Shown here: positions 55,469-64,000 of the stretch, piece after piece
How the letters are laid out: every line of letters begins with the position of its first letter
Position numbering within the stretch: position 1 is the first letter of the stretch
NCBI GenBank assembly: GCA_020048055.1
Contig: JAIFNA010000004.1
Coordinates: 62,001-126,000, forward strand
Reading direction: 5' to 3'
Length of the DNA: 64,000 nucleotides
Source of the DNA: Arcobacter sp.
Lineage (GTDB): Bacteria; Campylobacterota; Campylobacteria; Campylobacterales; Arcobacteraceae
Made by a program: the position numbers and the translations under genes
Notes under the pieces: model-generated
The model's database searches: none
Told to the model about the DNA's origin: nothing
Seen by the model: the letters and a program-made list of their open reading frames with translations, nothing else

Positions 55469-56422
55469 ATGTTCAGTTTAATTAAAAAATTACAAGAGCT
55501 TCTCGCAAGAGTTCAAAAAAATAAAGGACTATGGTTTACTATAATAACCGTTGTATCAGTGCTAGGGATTATAATTTTTATGTATTTTATACTCAATATG
55601 ACTAGCAGCGTTAAAGAGAAAGTTTATGTAAGTATTACTAGTAGTTATTTCAAATCGCTAGAGACTACTTTGCTAGCAAAAAAACAAAAATATATAGAAA
55701 TATCAGAGGCAATACTTACAAATGGAAGATTATTAGAAGCAATTCAACAAAATGATGCAGTATTTTTAGATAAATATACAACATCACTAAATGAAATATA
55801 TGCCAAAAATGATTTAAGAGCATTAACTATTAATTTTTTCCCTGTTGCTGATACAACATCAGTTCAAAGAGACACCATAACATCTACAATGAGATCCAAA
55901 TCGCAAGTTTCTGGAATAGAGGTTGAACAGAGTGGTGTTTACATCACGCTAATCCAACCTATAATGTCTGGTGAAAACTTTTTAGGTCTTATCGAAATTA
56001 AACAATCTATAAACTCACTCAAAGATGACTTTGAAGCAAATAATAATAATTTTGTATTTTTATTAGATAAAAAAATGTTAGTTAAGCTATCGCTTCAAGC
56101 AAAAAGTGGAAGATATAAAGATGTTGTTGCAGACTATACTGTTTATCAAAGTGCATACAATAGTAAATTTTATGGGAAAATAATAGAATCTGGTCCAGAA
56201 TTATTTGCATACGAAAGAAGAATTGGATATGGCGAGGATGACACTTACTTTAGAACATTCAAAAAAGCAACTGATATAAATGGTGCAGATATAGGACTTT
56301 ATGTTATCGGAGAAGGTGTGGAAAAAAATAATGGCTTTTTAAATATCGTAAAAGGCATGATAAATTCAATTGCGTCAGTTTCACTTGGACTTGTTGTTTC
56401 AATTTTACTGTTTATGTTTTAA
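55469..56422 (+). CDS. cache-type periplasmic sensor protein without output domain
   Basis: One helix at about 22-45 and another at about 295-317 bracket a 250-residue periplasmic domain with the double-cache look (LEIKQSINSLKDDF and a later FRTFKKATDINGADIGLYVIGE). Chemoreceptors of this form continue with HAMP and signalling domains, but this protein ends in the second helix. It is 15 bases from the channel gene, so it may sense a signal for that membrane complex. Ligand unknown. Confidence 0.68.
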   Translation: MFSLIKKLQELLARVQKNKGLWFTIITVVSVLGIIIFMYFILNMTSSVKEKVYVSITSSYFKSLETTLLAKKQKYIEISEAILTNGRLLEAIQQNDAVFLDKYTTSLNEIYAKNDLRALTINFFPVADTTSVQRDTITSTMRSKSQVSGIEVEQSGVYITLIQPIMSGENFLGLIEIKQSINSLKDDFEANNNNFVFLLDKKMLVKLSLQAKSGRYKDVVADYTVYQSAYNSKFYGKIIESGPELFAYERRIGYGEDDTYFRTFKKATDINGADIGLYVIGEGVEKNNGFLNIVKGMINSIASVSLGLVVSILLFMF

Positions 56423-56437
56423 GACTAAGGGGAAAAT

Positions 56438-57568
56438 ATGCGACGAGTAAAGGTTCTAAAATTATTTTTTATTTTTATGCTACTAATATCTTTTTTAGTA
56501 ATATCGAATTTAGATTCAATAATACTATATGGTAGCGCTACTATTATATTTAGCTCAGCAGTTGCTACTATTTTAGCAATTGGAATCATTGTTATAGTGC
56601 AATCAGCCATGAAGCTAACAATGCTAGCAGGTACATTTGGAATGCTTTCATACAAAAAAGGTGCCGAATTGGAGTTTTATCTTCACGGTATTGGAAAACT
56701 AATGCCAGCAACCATTGCAAATATGTTTGAAAAAAGAGCAAAAAAAGGTGTGCTTTATTTTACAAATGATGAAGCAAAAGATGTTACAGCATGGCTTGAG
56801 GCACAATTTCACAATACCAAAGGATATGTTGGATTTTTTGTTGGTACTTCACTTATGATAGGACTATTTGGAACATTTGTAGGACTTCTTGAAGCAATTG
56901 ACCATATGGGTGGAATTATTTTGTCTATGGGTGGCGATGTTAATATTTCTGAAATTATGGCTCAATTTGCTGGACCACTAGAAGGAATGGCAATTGGATT
57001 TGCTGCATCACTGTTTGGTGTATCGTCAGCAATCATACTTAATTTTTTACAATACATTCTGTCTCGTCAACAGGCTGCTTTTATTGAGGATGTTGAAGAT
57101 TGGTTAAAAGGAAAATTAATTGAGTCTCAATCAGCAGATATACTAGGCAAAATAAATACAACAAATGAAACCATAAAAGGACATGGAGCAGTTGATACAT
57201 CGCAATTAGGTATGGGTTCCAAAGCGTTTTTAGATGTTTTTGTTGATAAAATAAGTGAATTATCAAATAGCATAAACAAAGCAAATCAATCAAGTGAGCT
57301 GTTTTTCAAACAAGTTGCATTTGGATTAGAAGCATCATCAAATGCTACTAAACAACAAGTCGCACTATTTGAAGATATTTCAAAAAAACTTCAAGAATTA
57401 AACACAAGCCAATACTCAAGTACAGAATCAATGATAGAAGCAATCGATTCAGTTTCTGGTGCAATACTTAGTGAACATTCAACTTTGAAAAAAGTTTTAA
57501 CAACACAAGAACAAACAACAAATTCTCTTCTCTCTCTTATAGATATCTATAAGAGAGAGAAAAAGTAA
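56438..57568 (+). CDS. MotA/TolQ/ExbB-type proton channel protein
   Basis: Four membrane segments (about 8-24, 27-52, 131-155 and 180-210) and the conserved region GYVGFFVGTSLMIGLFGTFVGL place it in the MotA/TolQ/ExbB family. Two long amphipathic helical stretches make up the C terminus (about 250-376). Energy from the proton motive force would drive a partner with a periplasmic arm, here the next gene. It is not the ordinary MotA of the flagellum. Confidence 0.85.
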   Translation: MRRVKVLKLFFIFMLLISFLVISNLDSIILYGSATIIFSSAVATILAIGIIVIVQSAMKLTMLAGTFGMLSYKKGAELEFYLHGIGKLMPATIANMFEKRAKKGVLYFTNDEAKDVTAWLEAQFHNTKGYVGFFVGTSLMIGLFGTFVGLLEAIDHMGGIILSMGGDVNISEIMAQFAGPLEGMAIGFAASLFGVSSAIILNFLQYILSRQQAAFIEDVEDWLKGKLIESQSADILGKINTTNETIKGHGAVDTSQLGMGSKAFLDVFVDKISELSNSINKANQSSELFFKQVAFGLEASSNATKQQVALFEDISKKLQELNTSQYSSTESMIEAIDSVSGAILSEHSTLKKVLTTQEQTTNSLLSLIDIYKREKK

Positions 57569-57589
57569 AAATTTATGAAAAGGCTATAA

Positions 57590-58336
57590 ATGGAAGGCGA
57601 AGAATTTAACCCCTGGCCAGCCTTCGTTGATATCCTATCTTCTGTAATTCTGGTTTTATTACTTTTCTTATTAGTTACTTTGGTTAATATTGGATATTAT
57701 TCACAATTCAAATATACCGTTCAATATTCAGGTTCAGTTACAACAGAAGACATTATTTTGCAAGATACAGCAAAAAAAGTTGAACTTGATGAGAAAAAAA
57801 TTGTTGAAGATAAAGCCGAACAAATAGTTCCAAAAGAGTTAATGGAACAACAAATTCGTCAACAAATAATGAAACAAATGAAAGTTGAACTTCAAAATTT
57901 AAAAGAGAAAGTCGAGCACCAAGCAGCAACTGATATAGAATCAGCTGGTGAAGACTTAGCAGATAAGAAGAAAAGTGATGCAAAATCAAAACAAAACACA
58001 TCTCAAACAAGTAAGTTTTTTTACATTACATATAATGAAAATGAATTATTTATTGATCAAGGTGTAATTGAAAAATTAAAAACATTTTTAGCACAAGTAA
58101 AAGCAGCAAATGCTAATCACAATATTAATATATATGCAACCGATCCACTTGATCAAATAAGTTTAACAGTTACAAAACAAATAACTTTAGGAAGAACACT
58201 TAGTGTTAGAAATCTTCTGAGAAAATTAAAATATGAGAAAAATCAAGTAAAAATAAAACTTTCTGAAAAAATAGATGTACCTGTTGATGTAAAACTAGAT
58301 GCTGGAGTAATTATAATAGAGGCAACAAATGAATAA
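57590..58336 (+). CDS. MotB/ExbD-like partner with OmpA-like C terminus
   Basis: One membrane helix (about 12-32) holds Asp14 in PAFVDILSS, matching the proton-carrying Asp of MotB, TolR and ExbD. A Gln/Glu/Lys-rich coiled coil (about 65-140) follows, then a domain (about 150-245) that weakly resembles the OmpA/MotB peptidoglycan-binding fold, with ATD and an LGRTLSVRNLL helix. It overlaps the TolC-like gene by eight bases. Confidence 0.75.
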   Translation: MEGEEFNPWPAFVDILSSVILVLLLFLLVTLVNIGYYSQFKYTVQYSGSVTTEDIILQDTAKKVELDEKKIVEDKAEQIVPKELMEQQIRQQIMKQMKVELQNLKEKVEHQAATDIESAGEDLADKKKSDAKSKQNTSQTSKFFYITYNENELFIDQGVIEKLKTFLAQVKAANANHNINIYATDPLDQISLTVTKQITLGRTLSVRNLLRKLKYEKNQVKIKLSEKIDVPVDVKLDAGVIIIEATNE

Positions 58337-61300
58337 AATATTTTCTTCCATAATGTCGGTTTCGCTTGTGACGATCCCTTTAAATTTAAATAGTGCAGAA
58401 ATTGCAAAATCTGCACAAAAAGATAATCAACAAACACCAAAACCAAAAAATATAGATAAAGTATATGGCGGCGAGGAAGGGACATTAAATGAGTCTAAAT
58501 CTGCTCTTATTTCACCAGATTCTCTAGCTTTACAAAATTATTCATCTATAAAGGATAATTTTGACTTCTCAACATATGACAACGTTCCGCTTAAAAGTGT
58601 TATCTTAGAAACACTATCGCAAAGTAATGATTTAAAAAGTGCAAATGAAAAAGTTATACAAACGGACCTACAGTACAAAGATGCCTTTTCTGGATACCTC
58701 CCAACAGTTGACTTCCAATATAGCGCAAAAACAATACACAATAGCAGAAACGGTGATGATAATGTAGATAAGGATTCACATAGAAACTTCAATGAAGAGA
58801 GTTACAAATTTACACTAAAACAATCACTTTACACAGGTGGAGCAACTGAATCAAAAATCAAAAGTTTAAAATCAAAACTTGAAGAAGCAAAAAGAAAATA
58901 TACAATAGTCTTGGAGCAGGAGATACAAAAAGCAATAAAAGCATATTTTGATGTACTCTTTAGCAAGCAAAGTGTTGTGGTTAATGAAAGAAATATGGAA
59001 AAGCTAAATAAAATTTTAGAAATTACTCAAGTCAAATATGATAGCGGTGCCTTATCAATTGGTGACCTGAGTGCCGTTAAGGCAAATATTGCAAATGCTA
59101 GCGGAAAACTTATCAAAGTAAAATCAGATTTGGCTGATGCAATTGATTTTTATATTTATACAGTTGGTGAAGATTTTGCAAAAACGGCTCCTTATGAGGA
59201 AAACTTCAATCTTAACCTAACGACGCTAGAAGATTTATATGTAGATATTGTAGAAAATAATCTTGGGCTTATGAATTATAGATTAAACATCCAATCAACA
59301 AAAGATAAACTTTTAAACATGAAAGCTACATTTAAACCGAAAGTTGATTTTGAAATGAACTACAAAAATGTTTTAGATAAAGAGGATTTTAAAGCGAATG
59401 AGGAGACTTATGATGCAAAATTAACCCTAAACTACAATCTTTACAATGGTGGAAAAGATACTATTGCGACAATGGAGGTTTTTAGCTCTTTACAAGAATT
59501 AAACTTTAGATATCTAGAAGAAGTAAAAAAATTAAAATGGACCATGTCAAAACTATTTAATTCCATAAAATCACTTGAAGATACTATGGGAACAACGAAA
59601 CGAGAAGTTGCAGCATCTAAACAGATGGTTGAATCATATTGGGAAGGTTTTCAACTAGGTGAGCAAGATTTACAAGTTCTACTTCAAGGGCAAAGACAGC
59701 TAAATGGTGTAGAACTTGACTTAATAAGATACAAACAAGATCATCTTACAAATATATTCAAACTACTAAGCGAGAAAGGTGAACTTTCTAAATATTTTGA
59801 AATAGATAGTGACAATCCAGATTTTATAGATTTTACAAACACTGCAACTATTAAACCAAATATAAAACTTGATTTAACCTCTAAATCAGATGAAAATATT
59901 ACACTAAAAGATAACAATACAACTGATAACAACTCTTCGAAAGATTTAAACACAACAGTCAGTAATGAATTAAACGTAACCGTGGATAAATTCCTAGAGG
60001 TTGTAAACGAATCATCATTTAAAGATATTATTAACTTTAAGGATAGATTCCTAGAAGCCAGTGATGAAAATGTAACAATAATAATTGGTGATTTTACAAA
60101 TCATTATGATGCTTACAGTTATATGGATAAAAATCGAATTTTAGATAAAGCATTCAGCTATGAAGTTTTAAATAAAAATAATGGAGAGCAAAATGACTCA
60201 AAAACAAAAATTATTGATGTTAAGACAAATATCGCCTCAGGAATATACTCTACAAAAGAGGAAGCAGAAGTTGATTTAAAAAGTATTTTTGACAAAACAG
60301 GAAAAAATTTTAAAATTGTAACTATTAAAGATGTCAAAAATTTATATAATGATTATGTAGATGGGCTTGAAGCAAAGATTGAACCAATCATTATAGCTCC
60401 AGTAAAGCAAAAAGTGATTAAGACTTTTATGACTAATCAAGAGATGAAAACTAGATTTTTATCTGCTCCAAGCTCATCATTTAGTATCAATGTAGTATCA
60501 GTTTCTCAAATATCTAAAGCAGAAGCTCTCATAAAAGCAGAAAAAATAGAACCAGATTCATTTGTATTTAAATATGGGAGAAATGGAGAGTGGGTAAAGG
60601 TTATGCTGGGTGTATTTGACACTTACGAAGAGGCAACAAATGAACTAAACAAACACCCAGAACTAATCAAAAAATATTCACCTGTTGTCGAGAAAATAGG
60701 TCAAAAGCAAGATCTTTATAATAAATATAGCAATCTAAATCCTATTCCGCAATGGTTTTTAGATGAGCAAAAAGAGAAAAAAGAACTATTCAATGTAAAA
60801 GATAAAAAAGATAAGCAGGTAAAAAAAGATAAAAAAGAGAAACTAACCAAAATTGAACAAAAAATAGAACCTAAACAAAAACAAGCATCTGAGGTTATCG
60901 AGTTGCCTGACATAAAAAATGAAACTCAAGAAAAAGAACCAAATAGTCAACTAATTAATAAAGTTCAAAATGAGCCAATTTTTGAACAATTAGAAATTGC
61001 TGTTCAAGAAGTTACTGTTCAAAATGAATTACAAACAGACAATACTTTATCATTGGCTCAAAAACACAATGAATCGAATTCAAATGATCCTATTTTATTT
61101 GAAGAGGTTAAATCTGAAATAGAACAACCGACCACAACAAAATTAGAAAACGAATCAAAAAGTGAACAAAATAAGACAATTAATCAGAGTCCAAATAAAG
61201 AAATATCTAGTCAAATTGACACTAGCGTTACAGTTGAGTCATTAAAAAGTAGTTATAAAACATTTAAAGAAGCATATGATAATGCTCCAAAACATAAATA

Positions 61301-61520
61301 TACACTTGAATTACCTCCTGTGCTTTCAAAAGACAAAGATGCTTTTATTAAAAGATACCTACTAAGCGATAACTTTACAGAGATAACAAAAAAAGGATAC
61401 ACTAGAATATTTTTTGAACTTTTTGATGATGTAGAAAAGGCAAGAGCACAAAAATTCAATATGCATCCGCAACTTGTTGAAAAAATTAAAGTTATGAGAC
61501 TCGAGAGAATTACAAAATGA
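58329..61520 (+). CDS. TolC-family outer membrane channel fused to SPOR-like domains
   Basis: A signal peptide ends near NLNSA. Residues about 85-485 are a TolC-type outer membrane efflux domain, shown by paired repeats of long helices and YTGGATESKIKSLKSKLEEA and YNGGKDTIATMEV segments. Then come about 580 residues that TolC proteins normally lack: three SPOR-like segments (about 580-665, 716-790 and 987-1055) and a Lys/Glu/Gln-rich linker (about 810-970). SPOR domains bind denuded glycan, so this channel may be anchored in the cell wall. It overlaps the next gene by four bases. Confidence 0.85.
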   Translation: MNKIFSSIMSVSLVTIPLNLNSAEIAKSAQKDNQQTPKPKNIDKVYGGEEGTLNESKSALISPDSLALQNYSSIKDNFDFSTYDNVPLKSVILETLSQSNDLKSANEKVIQTDLQYKDAFSGYLPTVDFQYSAKTIHNSRNGDDNVDKDSHRNFNEESYKFTLKQSLYTGGATESKIKSLKSKLEEAKRKYTIVLEQEIQKAIKAYFDVLFSKQSVVVNERNMEKLNKILEITQVKYDSGALSIGDLSAVKANIANASGKLIKVKSDLADAIDFYIYTVGEDFAKTAPYEENFNLNLTTLEDLYVDIVENNLGLMNYRLNIQSTKDKLLNMKATFKPKVDFEMNYKNVLDKEDFKANEETYDAKLTLNYNLYNGGKDTIATMEVFSSLQELNFRYLEEVKKLKWTMSKLFNSIKSLEDTMGTTKREVAASKQMVESYWEGFQLGEQDLQVLLQGQRQLNGVELDLIRYKQDHLTNIFKLLSEKGELSKYFEIDSDNPDFIDFTNTATIKPNIKLDLTSKSDENITLKDNNTTDNNSSKDLNTTVSNELNVTVDKFLEVVNESSFKDIINFKDRFLEASDENVTIIIGDFTNHYDAYSYMDKNRILDKAFSYEVLNKNNGEQNDSKTKIIDVKTNIASGIYSTKEEAEVDLKSIFDKTGKNFKIVTIKDVKNLYNDYVDGLEAKIEPIIIAPVKQKVIKTFMTNQEMKTRFLSAPSSSFSINVVSVSQISKAEALIKAEKIEPDSFVFKYGRNGEWVKVMLGVFDTYEEATNELNKHPELIKKYSPVVEKIGQKQDLYNKYSNLNPIPQWFLDEQKEKKELFNVKDKKDKQVKKDKKEKLTKIEQKIEPKQKQASEVIELPDIKNETQEKEPNSQLINKVQNEPIFEQLEIAVQEVTVQNELQTDNTLSLAQKHNESNSNDPILFEEVKSEIEQPTTTKLENESKSEQNKTINQSPNKEISSQIDTSVTVESLKSSYKTFKEAYDNAPKHKYTLELPPVLSKDKDAFIKRYLLSDNFTEITKKGYTRIFFELFDDVEKARAQKFNMHPQLVEKIKVMRLERITK

Positions 61521-63688
61521 TTTATTTAAAATATATTGCTTTTATTATTACGCTTTATGTTAGTATTTTGGTTGCTATTATTGTTCCCTCATTTGAAAAG
61601 CTTAAAACAAATTTGGTAGAGAAACATAAAATTCAAAATAATTTACTTATTGATAACTTTATGACAAAGATAGAAATGGTATTACTCGATAATAAATATA
61701 CTCAAATCAAGCAATATATGGATAATTTTGTAGCAACTAATATAGTGGATAGTCTATCAATAAACTACACAAATTACTTTGTAACTGTAAATTATCTTTT
61801 ATCAAGTTCAAATAATATTAAAACCAAAGATTGGGTATTAAATGATGTAACTATGGATTACAAGTATGGAAAAATAGAGAAACTAACAGATACGATTTAT
61901 AAATTTGAGCCAAAAGCGGATTACGATTTTACAAAACCAATTGAGATAAAATTTCAAGCACTAAATGACACACAGATGGAAAATTCGATCTCGAAAATTA
62001 ATTTTAGTTTACCAAAAGTTACAATTCAAAAAATAAGAATTGAAAAAAGTTATCTTGAAACAAAATTTGAAGAATTACTTGAAATTCAAGATGGTATTGT
62101 TGAGAAAAAGTTTTATGCAGACAGTAAACATGACTACGCGACTTTAAAGTGTGTAACAAATAATACTCAACTTAAAAATGAGACCAAAAATGCTCTTCTT
62201 GAACTTTGGAAATTTTACACGCTATGTTTTGGATTAATTTTATTATTTGGAATTTTCTTCCATTTTTATATTCAAAAATTTATTTTTGTTAAAAAAATAA
62301 AAGATATTGATATCTACCTAAATGATGTTTTAAATAATAATTTTTATAAATTTAAAGGCTTAGAGAAAATAAAACAAAAAGAAATTTTAAGTCTTGTAAA
62401 AAATATACTAAAACTTACAAAAAATCTATCTGTACTAAATAATGAATTAACACATAATAGAAATCTAATTGAAGCTAAAATTTCATCAGATACTCTAACA
62501 AAATTACCAAATAAAAAAATATTTGAAATAGACATGAAAGGATTATTTGTAGATAGTAAAGATAGCTACATTACGAAAATAAAATTAGAAATTTTAAAAA
62601 CTTTTTCCAATGACAATTCGAGCGATTTAATAGATGATCTTGTAATGGATTTTGTTGATATGATAACCCAAGCACTAAAAATCAATAATCAAAAAAATTC
62701 AAAATTATATAGGCTTTATGGGTCAGAATTTATCCTAATAACAAAATATACAAACTACAAAAATATGAATGATTTACTAGAGCTATTGTTTGAAAATAGT
62801 AACTTAATTATTGAAAAATACAATCTAACTTCAAAACTTTCATTTGGCGTATCTGCTGCCTTTGATAAATATGGAACCATAGACCAAATACTAATCAATC
62901 TTGAAAATATTTATAATCATGCAATTTCAGATAACCAAATAAAGCAAAAATATTATTTTGTTGAAAATTCTCAACAACAAGATGAGCAGGCATTAAGACT
63001 TGAAAAAATTGTAAAAAGTATTATTGATAACGATGCATTTGCACTCTCTTATAAATTTAATGCTTATGAATTTAATAATCCAGAAAAACTAATAATGCAA
63101 GAAGTATCACCTAATCTATGTGATACCAATGGTGTCCCTATACCAGTTGCAACATTTATTTCAGTTGCTGAACACTTACATTTAGCGATAGATTTTGACA
63201 AACAACTCATAGTGAAAACCCTTAAATATATAAAGCAAAACGAAGTAAAACATGACTTAGCCATAAATATATCTATAAGCTCACTTAACGATAAATCGTT
63301 TAATACTTGGCTTGAGTCACAATTATTATTTTACGATTATGAAACCATCAGCAGAGTTGTATTTAGCGTTACAACATTTGCTGTTAAAAATAATTATGAA
63401 CAATTTGCTATGTTTATCAAAGATATTAAAAAATTCGATGGTAGAATTTTACTAAAACGATTTAGCTACAACGATTTAACTCTAGCGCAACTTGAAAATC
63501 TTGAGCTTGATTTTATGAGGGTTCACAAGGACTATACTACCAATATAGACACAGATAGAGGGGTATTGCTAAAAAATATAGCTAGTTTTTGCGAAATTCA
63601 TGATATTAAATTATTGGGCGATGCTGTTACTTTAGATAGTGACTATGAACTACTAAAAAAATTAAATTTTTATGCCACAAGCAGATAA
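61517..63688 (+). CDS. LapD-like membrane protein with degenerate GGDEF and EAL domains
   Basis: Two membrane helices (about 5-24 and 232-252) flank a periplasmic domain as in LapD. A HAMP-like linker leads to a GGDEF domain in which the signature is YGSEF, and an EAL domain in which EAL is EVS (MQEVSP) and later catalytic acids are missing; the end is truncated before the usual final loop. Both domains are therefore probably inactive and may sense c-di-GMP or only transmit a signal. Length 723. Confidence 0.78.
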   Translation: MIYLKYIAFIITLYVSILVAIIVPSFEKLKTNLVEKHKIQNNLLIDNFMTKIEMVLLDNKYTQIKQYMDNFVATNIVDSLSINYTNYFVTVNYLLSSSNNIKTKDWVLNDVTMDYKYGKIEKLTDTIYKFEPKADYDFTKPIEIKFQALNDTQMENSISKINFSLPKVTIQKIRIEKSYLETKFEELLEIQDGIVEKKFYADSKHDYATLKCVTNNTQLKNETKNALLELWKFYTLCFGLILLFGIFFHFYIQKFIFVKKIKDIDIYLNDVLNNNFYKFKGLEKIKQKEILSLVKNILKLTKNLSVLNNELTHNRNLIEAKISSDTLTKLPNKKIFEIDMKGLFVDSKDSYITKIKLEILKTFSNDNSSDLIDDLVMDFVDMITQALKINNQKNSKLYRLYGSEFILITKYTNYKNMNDLLELLFENSNLIIEKYNLTSKLSFGVSAAFDKYGTIDQILINLENIYNHAISDNQIKQKYYFVENSQQQDEQALRLEKIVKSIIDNDAFALSYKFNAYEFNNPEKLIMQEVSPNLCDTNGVPIPVATFISVAEHLHLAIDFDKQLIVKTLKYIKQNEVKHDLAINISISSLNDKSFNTWLESQLLFYDYETISRVVFSVTTFAVKNNYEQFAMFIKDIKKFDGRILLKRFSYNDLTLAQLENLELDFMRVHKDYTTNIDTDRGVLLKNIASFCEIHDIKLLGDAVTLDSDYELLKKLNFYATSR

Positions 63689-63696
63689 GGAATTCT

Positions 63697-64000
63697 ATGT
63701 TTAAATATATACTAACACTATGTTTTGTACCTTTTTTATTTTTGGGGTGTAATAAAAATTCTCCAGAATATTCAGTTCGAGAATATAAAGATATTAGCAA
63801 GGATGCGATTTTAAATGCTGCAAAAAGGGTGATAAAACTATCAGACAAAGATTTTACAATCTCTGCGAAAAAAGAATCTATAAATGCAATTAGAGCAATC
63901 CCTAAAAACAAAGGCTTTACTGTTGATATAAATATAAACGAATTAGAATTAACAACAGCGAGCAAAAATAACTACACAACAGCCAGACTTAAAATTACAC
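63697..64000 (+). CDS. lipoprotein, N-terminal part only
   Basis: The first 101 residues are visible before the edge. The signal ends in a lipobox FLFLGC (Cys18). The mature part is short-helical and charged, with no recognised domain. AAGGAATTCT precedes the ATG by normal distance, nine bases after the LapD-like stop, so it belongs to the same unit. Confidence 0.72.
   Translation, partial: MFKYILTLCFVPFLFLGCNKNSPEYSVREYKDISKDAILNAAKRVIKLSDKDFTISAKKESINAIRAIPKNKGFTVDININELELTTASKNNYTTARLKIT

Follow-up and report, generated by a model that had tools for sequence, protein, structure and literature searches.

A probable SiiAB-type proton channel and a LapD-derived module in type I secretion loci for giant RTX adhesins of Campylobacterota

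The stretch of DNA analysed here (the window) comprises 64,000 nucleotides of an Arcobacter sp. genome (G000:C8:62001-126000), and a cluster of six genes lies at its end. The ORF listing of the window has all six open reading frames intact, in the same (+) orientation and nearly touching, with intergenic gaps of 15, 21, -8, -4 and 8 nt in order. They encode a membrane-anchored dCache sensor (55469..56422, 317 aa), a MotA/ExbB/SiiB-type proton-channel subunit with a C-terminal cytoplasmic tail (56438..57568, 376 aa), a MotB/ExbD/SiiA-type subunit with a transmembrane (TM) Asp and an OmpA-like periplasmic domain (57590..58336, 248 aa), a TolC-family outer-membrane channel with a long C-terminal extension and a SPOR domain (58329..61520, 1063 aa), a LapD-like protein with degenerate GGDEF and EAL domains (61517..63688, 723 aa), and the start of a SPOR lipoprotein (63697..64000). 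The locus is truncated by the window end, and the cluster runs on beyond it; positions there are given in region L002, to which 53000 is added to obtain the window position. The original prediction for this DNA described six tightly packed genes, and the set is indeed conserved across the order, far above chance. In a scan for promoters, the sequence before the Cache gene scored no higher than chance.

The Cache protein matches dCache_3 (E 3.1e-6, above the Pfam cut-off) and has one TM helix at each end and no output domain, in agreement with its earlier description as a sensor lacking output. Homologues occur in 62 of 63 Campylobacterota loci (see below), directly upstream of MotA and on the same strand in 57 of them. 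The assignment of the next protein as a channel of the ExbB/MotA type holds, with its membership of the MotA superfamily resting on weak profile matches: the Pfam MotA_ExbB match is sub-threshold (0.002; 18.3 bits, with a cut-off of 22.9), and ZorA-type MotA models match at 3.5e-9. Its homologues in relatives have 41-76% identity. Its partner, which was expected to be of the ExbD/MotB type, is composed of a single TM helix, a disordered or helical linker and an OmpA-like periplasmic domain. This assignment is borne out by an invariant TM Asp and an OmpA/SiiA-like fold, although the protein has no MotB or ExbD match in Pfam. The Asp (residue 14, at the start of the TM helix) is present in all 16 aligned sequences and in all 63 loci, and an Arg at the OmpA-type helix position is likewise invariant in the alignment. 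The AlphaFold2 model is confident in both the TM helix and the periplasmic domain, and a fold search against the PDB gave as its top match the peptidoglycan-binding domain of SiiA (6qvp, E 6.6e-6). SiiA chains rank first in this search, with TM-scores on the target of 0.76-0.82, ahead of H. pylori MotB. The fold search alone found SiiA: a sequence-profile search of the PDB with the MotB and MotA profiles returned no SiiA or motor match. Going by the model, the MotB-like subunit has a SiiA-like domain that is predicted to bind peptidoglycan.

The TolC-family channel was originally described as carrying SPOR-like extensions in the plural. The TolC assignment (OEP, 2.2e-37) and one SPOR domain (4.6e-5, the single one above the Pfam cut-off) stand, while the other extensions are too weak for Pfam. 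Among 26 scanned TolC homologues, SPOR was found in 19 and OmpA in none. By TolC topology, the C-terminal extension is periplasmic, with at least one SPOR (peptidoglycan-binding) domain. The last gene of the six, cut by the window, is complete in L002 (L002:10697-12286, ending at C8:127286) and encodes a lipoprotein, as had been proposed, of 529 aa. Its C-terminal piece matches SPOR weakly (0.0017), and the protein aligns with the TolC extension over 94 aa at 31% identity. It is followed by a Sel1 protein with six repeats (L002:12307-13245).

The LapD-like protein has two TM helices flanking a periplasmic domain of about 205 aa, followed by the GGDEF (7.8e-6) and EAL (2.9e-21) domains identified by Pfam. 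Its best NCBIfam equivalog is LapD, at 88.5 of 1020 bits. Both signatures are degenerate (YGSEF and QEVSPN), which fits the earlier reading of a dead GGDEF-EAL protein.

The original prediction suggested looking downstream for an ABC transporter and an HlyD adaptor, and both are found here on the minus strand, 3-7 kb past the Sel1 gene. The HlyD adaptor (L002:16498-17772) scores 344 bits with TIGR01843 (cut-off 208.7), and the ABC transporter (L002:17773-19956), of the LssB type, 694.8 bits with TIGR03375 (cut-off 693.1). Both exceed the curated cut-offs, and the secretion genes sought are therefore present. We take the LssB type of ABC transporter to be the type of LapB. After the ABC gene in L002, also on the minus strand, comes a gene for a TPR/methyltransferase/glycosyltransferase-type protein.

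Between the two halves of the system (L002:13252-16482) there is a CHASE2-adenylate cyclase, on the opposite strand, facing two overlapping FecR-type ORFs. A frameshift was considered for the latter and rejected, because the identical two-ORF layout is found beside the locus in the same-genus genome G001; the CHASE2-cyclase/FecR set is thus a shared trait.

The MotA-like protein was found in 17 of the 60 relatives searched. In most relatives of the same family the genes are arranged on one strand in the order giant RTX ORF, TPR/glycosyltransferase, ABC, HlyD, Cache, MotA, MotB, TolC-SPOR, LapD-like protein, SPOR lipoprotein and Sel1. The large repeat adhesin that the original prediction proposed to look for is thus in the same cluster in relatives; the six genes are conserved together, with secretion genes adjoining. 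In the genus of the window itself the cluster is split, with the TPR-ABC-HlyD unit on a separate contig in G001 and G007 (88% identity for the ABC transporter). A locus scan that took one genome per species gave 63 strong loci, all from Campylobacterota by title or kinship, including Arcobacter, Malaciobacter, Halarcobacter, Sulfurimonas, Sulfurospirillum, Sulfuricurvum and others. MotB directly follows MotA in every one of the 63. Where the flanks are complete (24 loci), TolC is always present, and type I secretion system (T1SS) genes or a giant ORF are present in 23.

Three further loci deserve a mention. In genome G028, the ABC gene and a 12,331-aa adhesin (G028:C15:209277-257305; L086, L182) share a contig with the motor genes, at a distance of about 100-150 kb from them. 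A metagenome bin titled 'Helicobacter pylori PMSS1' (L093, CAMCYD010000025.1) has a MotA 75% identical to that of the window; the bin is placed in the window's genus, and its title looks wrong. On a Burkholderiales contig (L166:1686-4338), a MotA-like gene directly follows an HlyD gene, with a TolC gene near, which suggests that motor-equipped T1SS loci exist outside Campylobacterota too.

The loci fall into two types. Where LapD is present, MotA is short (358-393 aa) and TolC is long (743-1,403 aa) and in most cases carries SPOR. The second type, with about 30 loci, lacks LapD; its TolC is short (440-591 aa), and its MotA, of 386-855 aa, extends in most loci into a long helical cytoplasmic tail (L119-L155) that recalls ZorA. 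Such long tails are found only in loci without the LapD module. Eight Arcobacter-like loci cut by contig ends were counted in neither type. Since some 30 loci lack it, LapD stands outside the core machine, and the split into two types implies a core of Cache, MotA, MotB and TolC together with the T1SS. LapD, the SPOR lipoprotein, Sel1 and the SPOR-bearing TolC look like one added module, and the long MotA tail may be an alternative input in the loci without LapD.

The giant ORFs are candidates for the substrate of this machinery. In G009, a single frame of 13,089 codons precedes the cluster, with 124 RTX-type motifs and no cysteine, and begins with a conserved 450-residue region. The long adhesin frames span 3,690 to 13,090 aa (the 12,331 aa of G028 being the second longest) and have 46-139 RTX-type motifs each. 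A profile of the first 450 residues (profile A1, the N-terminal module) identified the adhesin of the Arcobacter genome studied here, on a contig other than that of the motor genes; its frame opens at C10:210824, contains 45 GGxGxD motifs and is cut by the end of the contig after 2,668 codons. The N-terminus was not found in the draft assemblies of the same-genus genomes G001, G002 and G007, an absence that is uninformative because repetitive giant genes break the contigs of draft assemblies. Among 249 genomes of the order, the motor was found at high score in 26 and the adhesin module in 27, with both in 25, the motor only in 1 and the adhesin only in 2. The module is therefore present in 25 of 26 genomes with the motor and in 2 of 223 without it (Fisher p 6e-31, to be taken as a guide only, as related genomes are not independent). 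Where both occur, motor and module share a contig in 21 genomes out of 25. In G020, which has no motor, a 3,735-aa protein (L174:4253-19999) matches the module weakly and is followed by apparent TolC, ABC and HlyD genes.

The N-terminal module belongs to no family in Pfam or NCBIfam. Its structural model has a β region, a low-confidence linker and a second β region, with low confidence overall, and a fold search with this model gave no significant match. Given this, a role of the module in retention rests on its position, its conservation and analogy.

The original prediction held a proton motor in an adhesin T1SS to be unusual. It is not without precedent: the SiiA and SiiB proteins of Salmonella SPI-4 form the proton channel of a T1SS and govern the retention of the adhesin SiiE on the cell surface (PMC6272769, PMC12607715). 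Loss of the proton-motive force (PMF) lowers SiiE retention, with a strong effect of CCCP (PMC6272769, PMC12607715). The SPI-4 genes siiA-F share with the present loci an ABC transporter, an adaptor, a TolC-family channel and MotA-like and MotB-like subunits clustered with a giant adhesin. They also share the SiiA fold noted above and an adhesin N-terminus of the β/linker/β kind, as described for SiiE. They differ in several respects. The substrate here is of the RTX type, whereas SiiE has non-RTX, calcium-binding BIg repeats, for which reason we call the system SiiAB-like and do not file it as SPI-4. The Cache, LapD-like, SPOR lipoprotein, Sel1 and TPR/glycosyltransferase genes are additional here, TolC bears SPOR, the phylum is different, and the MotB-like profile has no detectable sequence similarity to SiiA. 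A comparison can also be made with the Dvh system of Desulfovibrio vulgaris, in which control of a T1SS adhesin likewise involves dCache and a c-di-GMP receptor that is catalytically dead (PMC13090378). There, dCache and HD-GYP are combined in DvhD, which controls the protease DvhG (PMC13090378), whereas the loci described here have a motor, and their dCache is a separate protein with no output. A recent survey counts SiiAB, MotAB, ExbBD, TolQR and ZorAB among the PMF motors whose action reaches the outer membrane (PMC12204202). The last four have in common with the present proteins a two-subunit inner-membrane channel with a conserved TM Asp; the channel here is tied to a T1SS, and has no flagellar, TonB, Tol-Pal or Zorya partners. 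No description of a motor in Campylobacterota T1SS loci was found in the open-licence literature.

At the level of sequence, the gene set, its conservation and its linkage to an LssB-type ABC transporter, HlyD and a giant adhesin are established, as is the SiiA-like fold in the model of the MotB partner. We propose a T1SS that exports a giant RTX adhesin and has a SiiAB-type proton channel of its own, the present locus supplying its envelope and regulatory half, and give this reading, general role included, a probability of about 0.72; each regulatory step is held with less confidence. The most likely mechanism is that of a force-coupled, SiiAB-type T1SS in which the module derived from LapD works for the motor and not for a protease. 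MotA and MotB would form a PMF-driven 5:2 channel, the periplasmic domains of MotB gripping the peptidoglycan, and TolC would be tethered to the cell wall by its SPOR extension. The adhesin would be exported C-terminus first, and its N-terminal β/linker/β module would then hold it in the TolC channel. The PMF channel would act on this wall-anchored conduit, so that motor activity decides between hold and release, as proposed for SiiE. Input on a periplasmic ligand and on the cytoplasmic c-di-GMP state may reach this decision through the Cache protein and through the LapD-like receptor with its SPOR lipoprotein and Sel1 partners, and no protease would be needed.

It could be argued that this is an ordinary Lap system, in which the LapD-like protein holds a LapG encoded elsewhere, proteolysis frees the adhesin and the motor is incidental. 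The Lap system of Pseudomonas fluorescens (LapA, LapBCE, LapD and LapG) does share the LssB/LapB-type ABC transporter, HlyD, TolC, a large RTX adhesin and a membrane receptor with a dead GGDEF-EAL. In addition, the genome studied here has two PF06035 (LapG) proteases, both on contig C13 and outside the motor locus. One belongs to a second, canonical Lap locus (G000:C13:29757-41453; L051:9757-20000, L052), where it sits beside a LapD with a LapD_MoxY_N domain; this locus also has a response regulator, a TolC fused to OmpA, ABC and HlyD genes and an ankyrin protein, and the other LapG is about 9 kb away. This locus serves as an internal control. LapD_MoxY_N is present in all 14 canonical LapDs, which were taken from LapG neighbourhoods in the same family, and in none of 29 motor-locus LapD-like proteins. 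The two sets divide in the same way by a Gly-Trp located towards the end of their periplasmic domains in the canonical proteins (14/14 and 0/29). The docking point of LapG on LapD is a conserved Trp, numbered W125 in P. fluorescens (PMC5231407), and judging by position we infer that the canonical Gly-Trp is this anchor. The periplasmic domains of the two sets still match in a profile-profile comparison (98.9% probability at 11% identity), and the motor-locus protein thus looks like a LapD stripped of its protease interface. All 29 have degenerate GGDEF and EAL signatures (GGEF is kept in four), and the EAL motif ExLxR is without its Arg in every one, so that c-di-GMP binding is putative. A LapG-type protease was among the genes that the original prediction proposed to look for; the motor locus encodes none, and the cleavage site [TAP]AAG is absent from the first 700 aa of the adhesins checked. 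Moreover, G007 and G019 both have the motor and the LapD-like protein and have no PF06035 LapG anywhere in the genome. An ordinary Lap system is on these grounds quite improbable; the proton channel is a further difference from P. fluorescens.

A stronger rival to retention by a SiiAB-type channel is that the motor powers export, the PMF either helping a substrate of the 1 MDa class through or keeping the ABC-HlyD-TolC conduit assembled. With as many as 13,090 aa, the substrates rank with the largest proteins of bacteria. The motor is firmly associated with T1SS genes, and a giant secretion complex that persists for long might have to be tethered to the cell wall by a driven device. On the other side, the comparable giant RTX adhesins LapA and MpAFP work in systems for which, to our knowledge, no such motor has been described. 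MpAFP is a giant RTX adhesin of 1.5 MDa (PMC4083281). Deletion of siiA or siiB in Salmonella leaves SiiE secretion intact and alters cell invasion and virulence (PMC12607715), and we rank retention and release above export for this reason; a motor for export seems unlikely. A Tol/Ton-like or Zorya-like motor that has another role, such as defence or the stability of the envelope, and is no more than a neighbour of these conserved genes would account for membership of the MotA superfamily and for the weak matches to ZorA models. It is very improbable indeed, in view of the genome-wide co-occurrence with one adhesin module and the T1SS genes or giant ORFs that adjoin in 23 of 24 full loci; no TolA/TonB-like or ZorC/D/E-like gene was seen in the neighbourhood. 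Zorya defence as such was rejected, there being no ZorB match and the neighbours being T1SS genes.

The system is most likely a T1SS of the known SiiAB-equipped kind, widespread in Campylobacterota, in a form that has gained a LapD-derived module. SiiAB is known from Salmonella, and a like logic is now seen in dozens of species of another phylum, cultured, non-pathogenic ones such as Malaciobacter halophilus and Sulfurospirillum cavolei included, in which motor and adhesin module are linked almost one to one. The loci also give a second mechanistic clue: one type combines a LapD-like receptor with a TolC predicted to bind the cell wall, and the other has a long motor tail. As a tentative further proposal, a c-di-GMP receptor derived from LapD may have exchanged its periplasmic protease for a proton-driven stator as partner; a second messenger would then set the hold or release of a 1 MDa adhesin, in a protease-free, force-based counterpart of Lap; in the sister type, the long MotA tail would replace the receptor. 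Two known controls of giant adhesins, c-di-GMP through LapD and the PMF through SiiAB, meet in one operon, and the question of how SiiAB uses the PMF to hold SiiE (PMC12607715) therefore becomes testable by comparing the two types.
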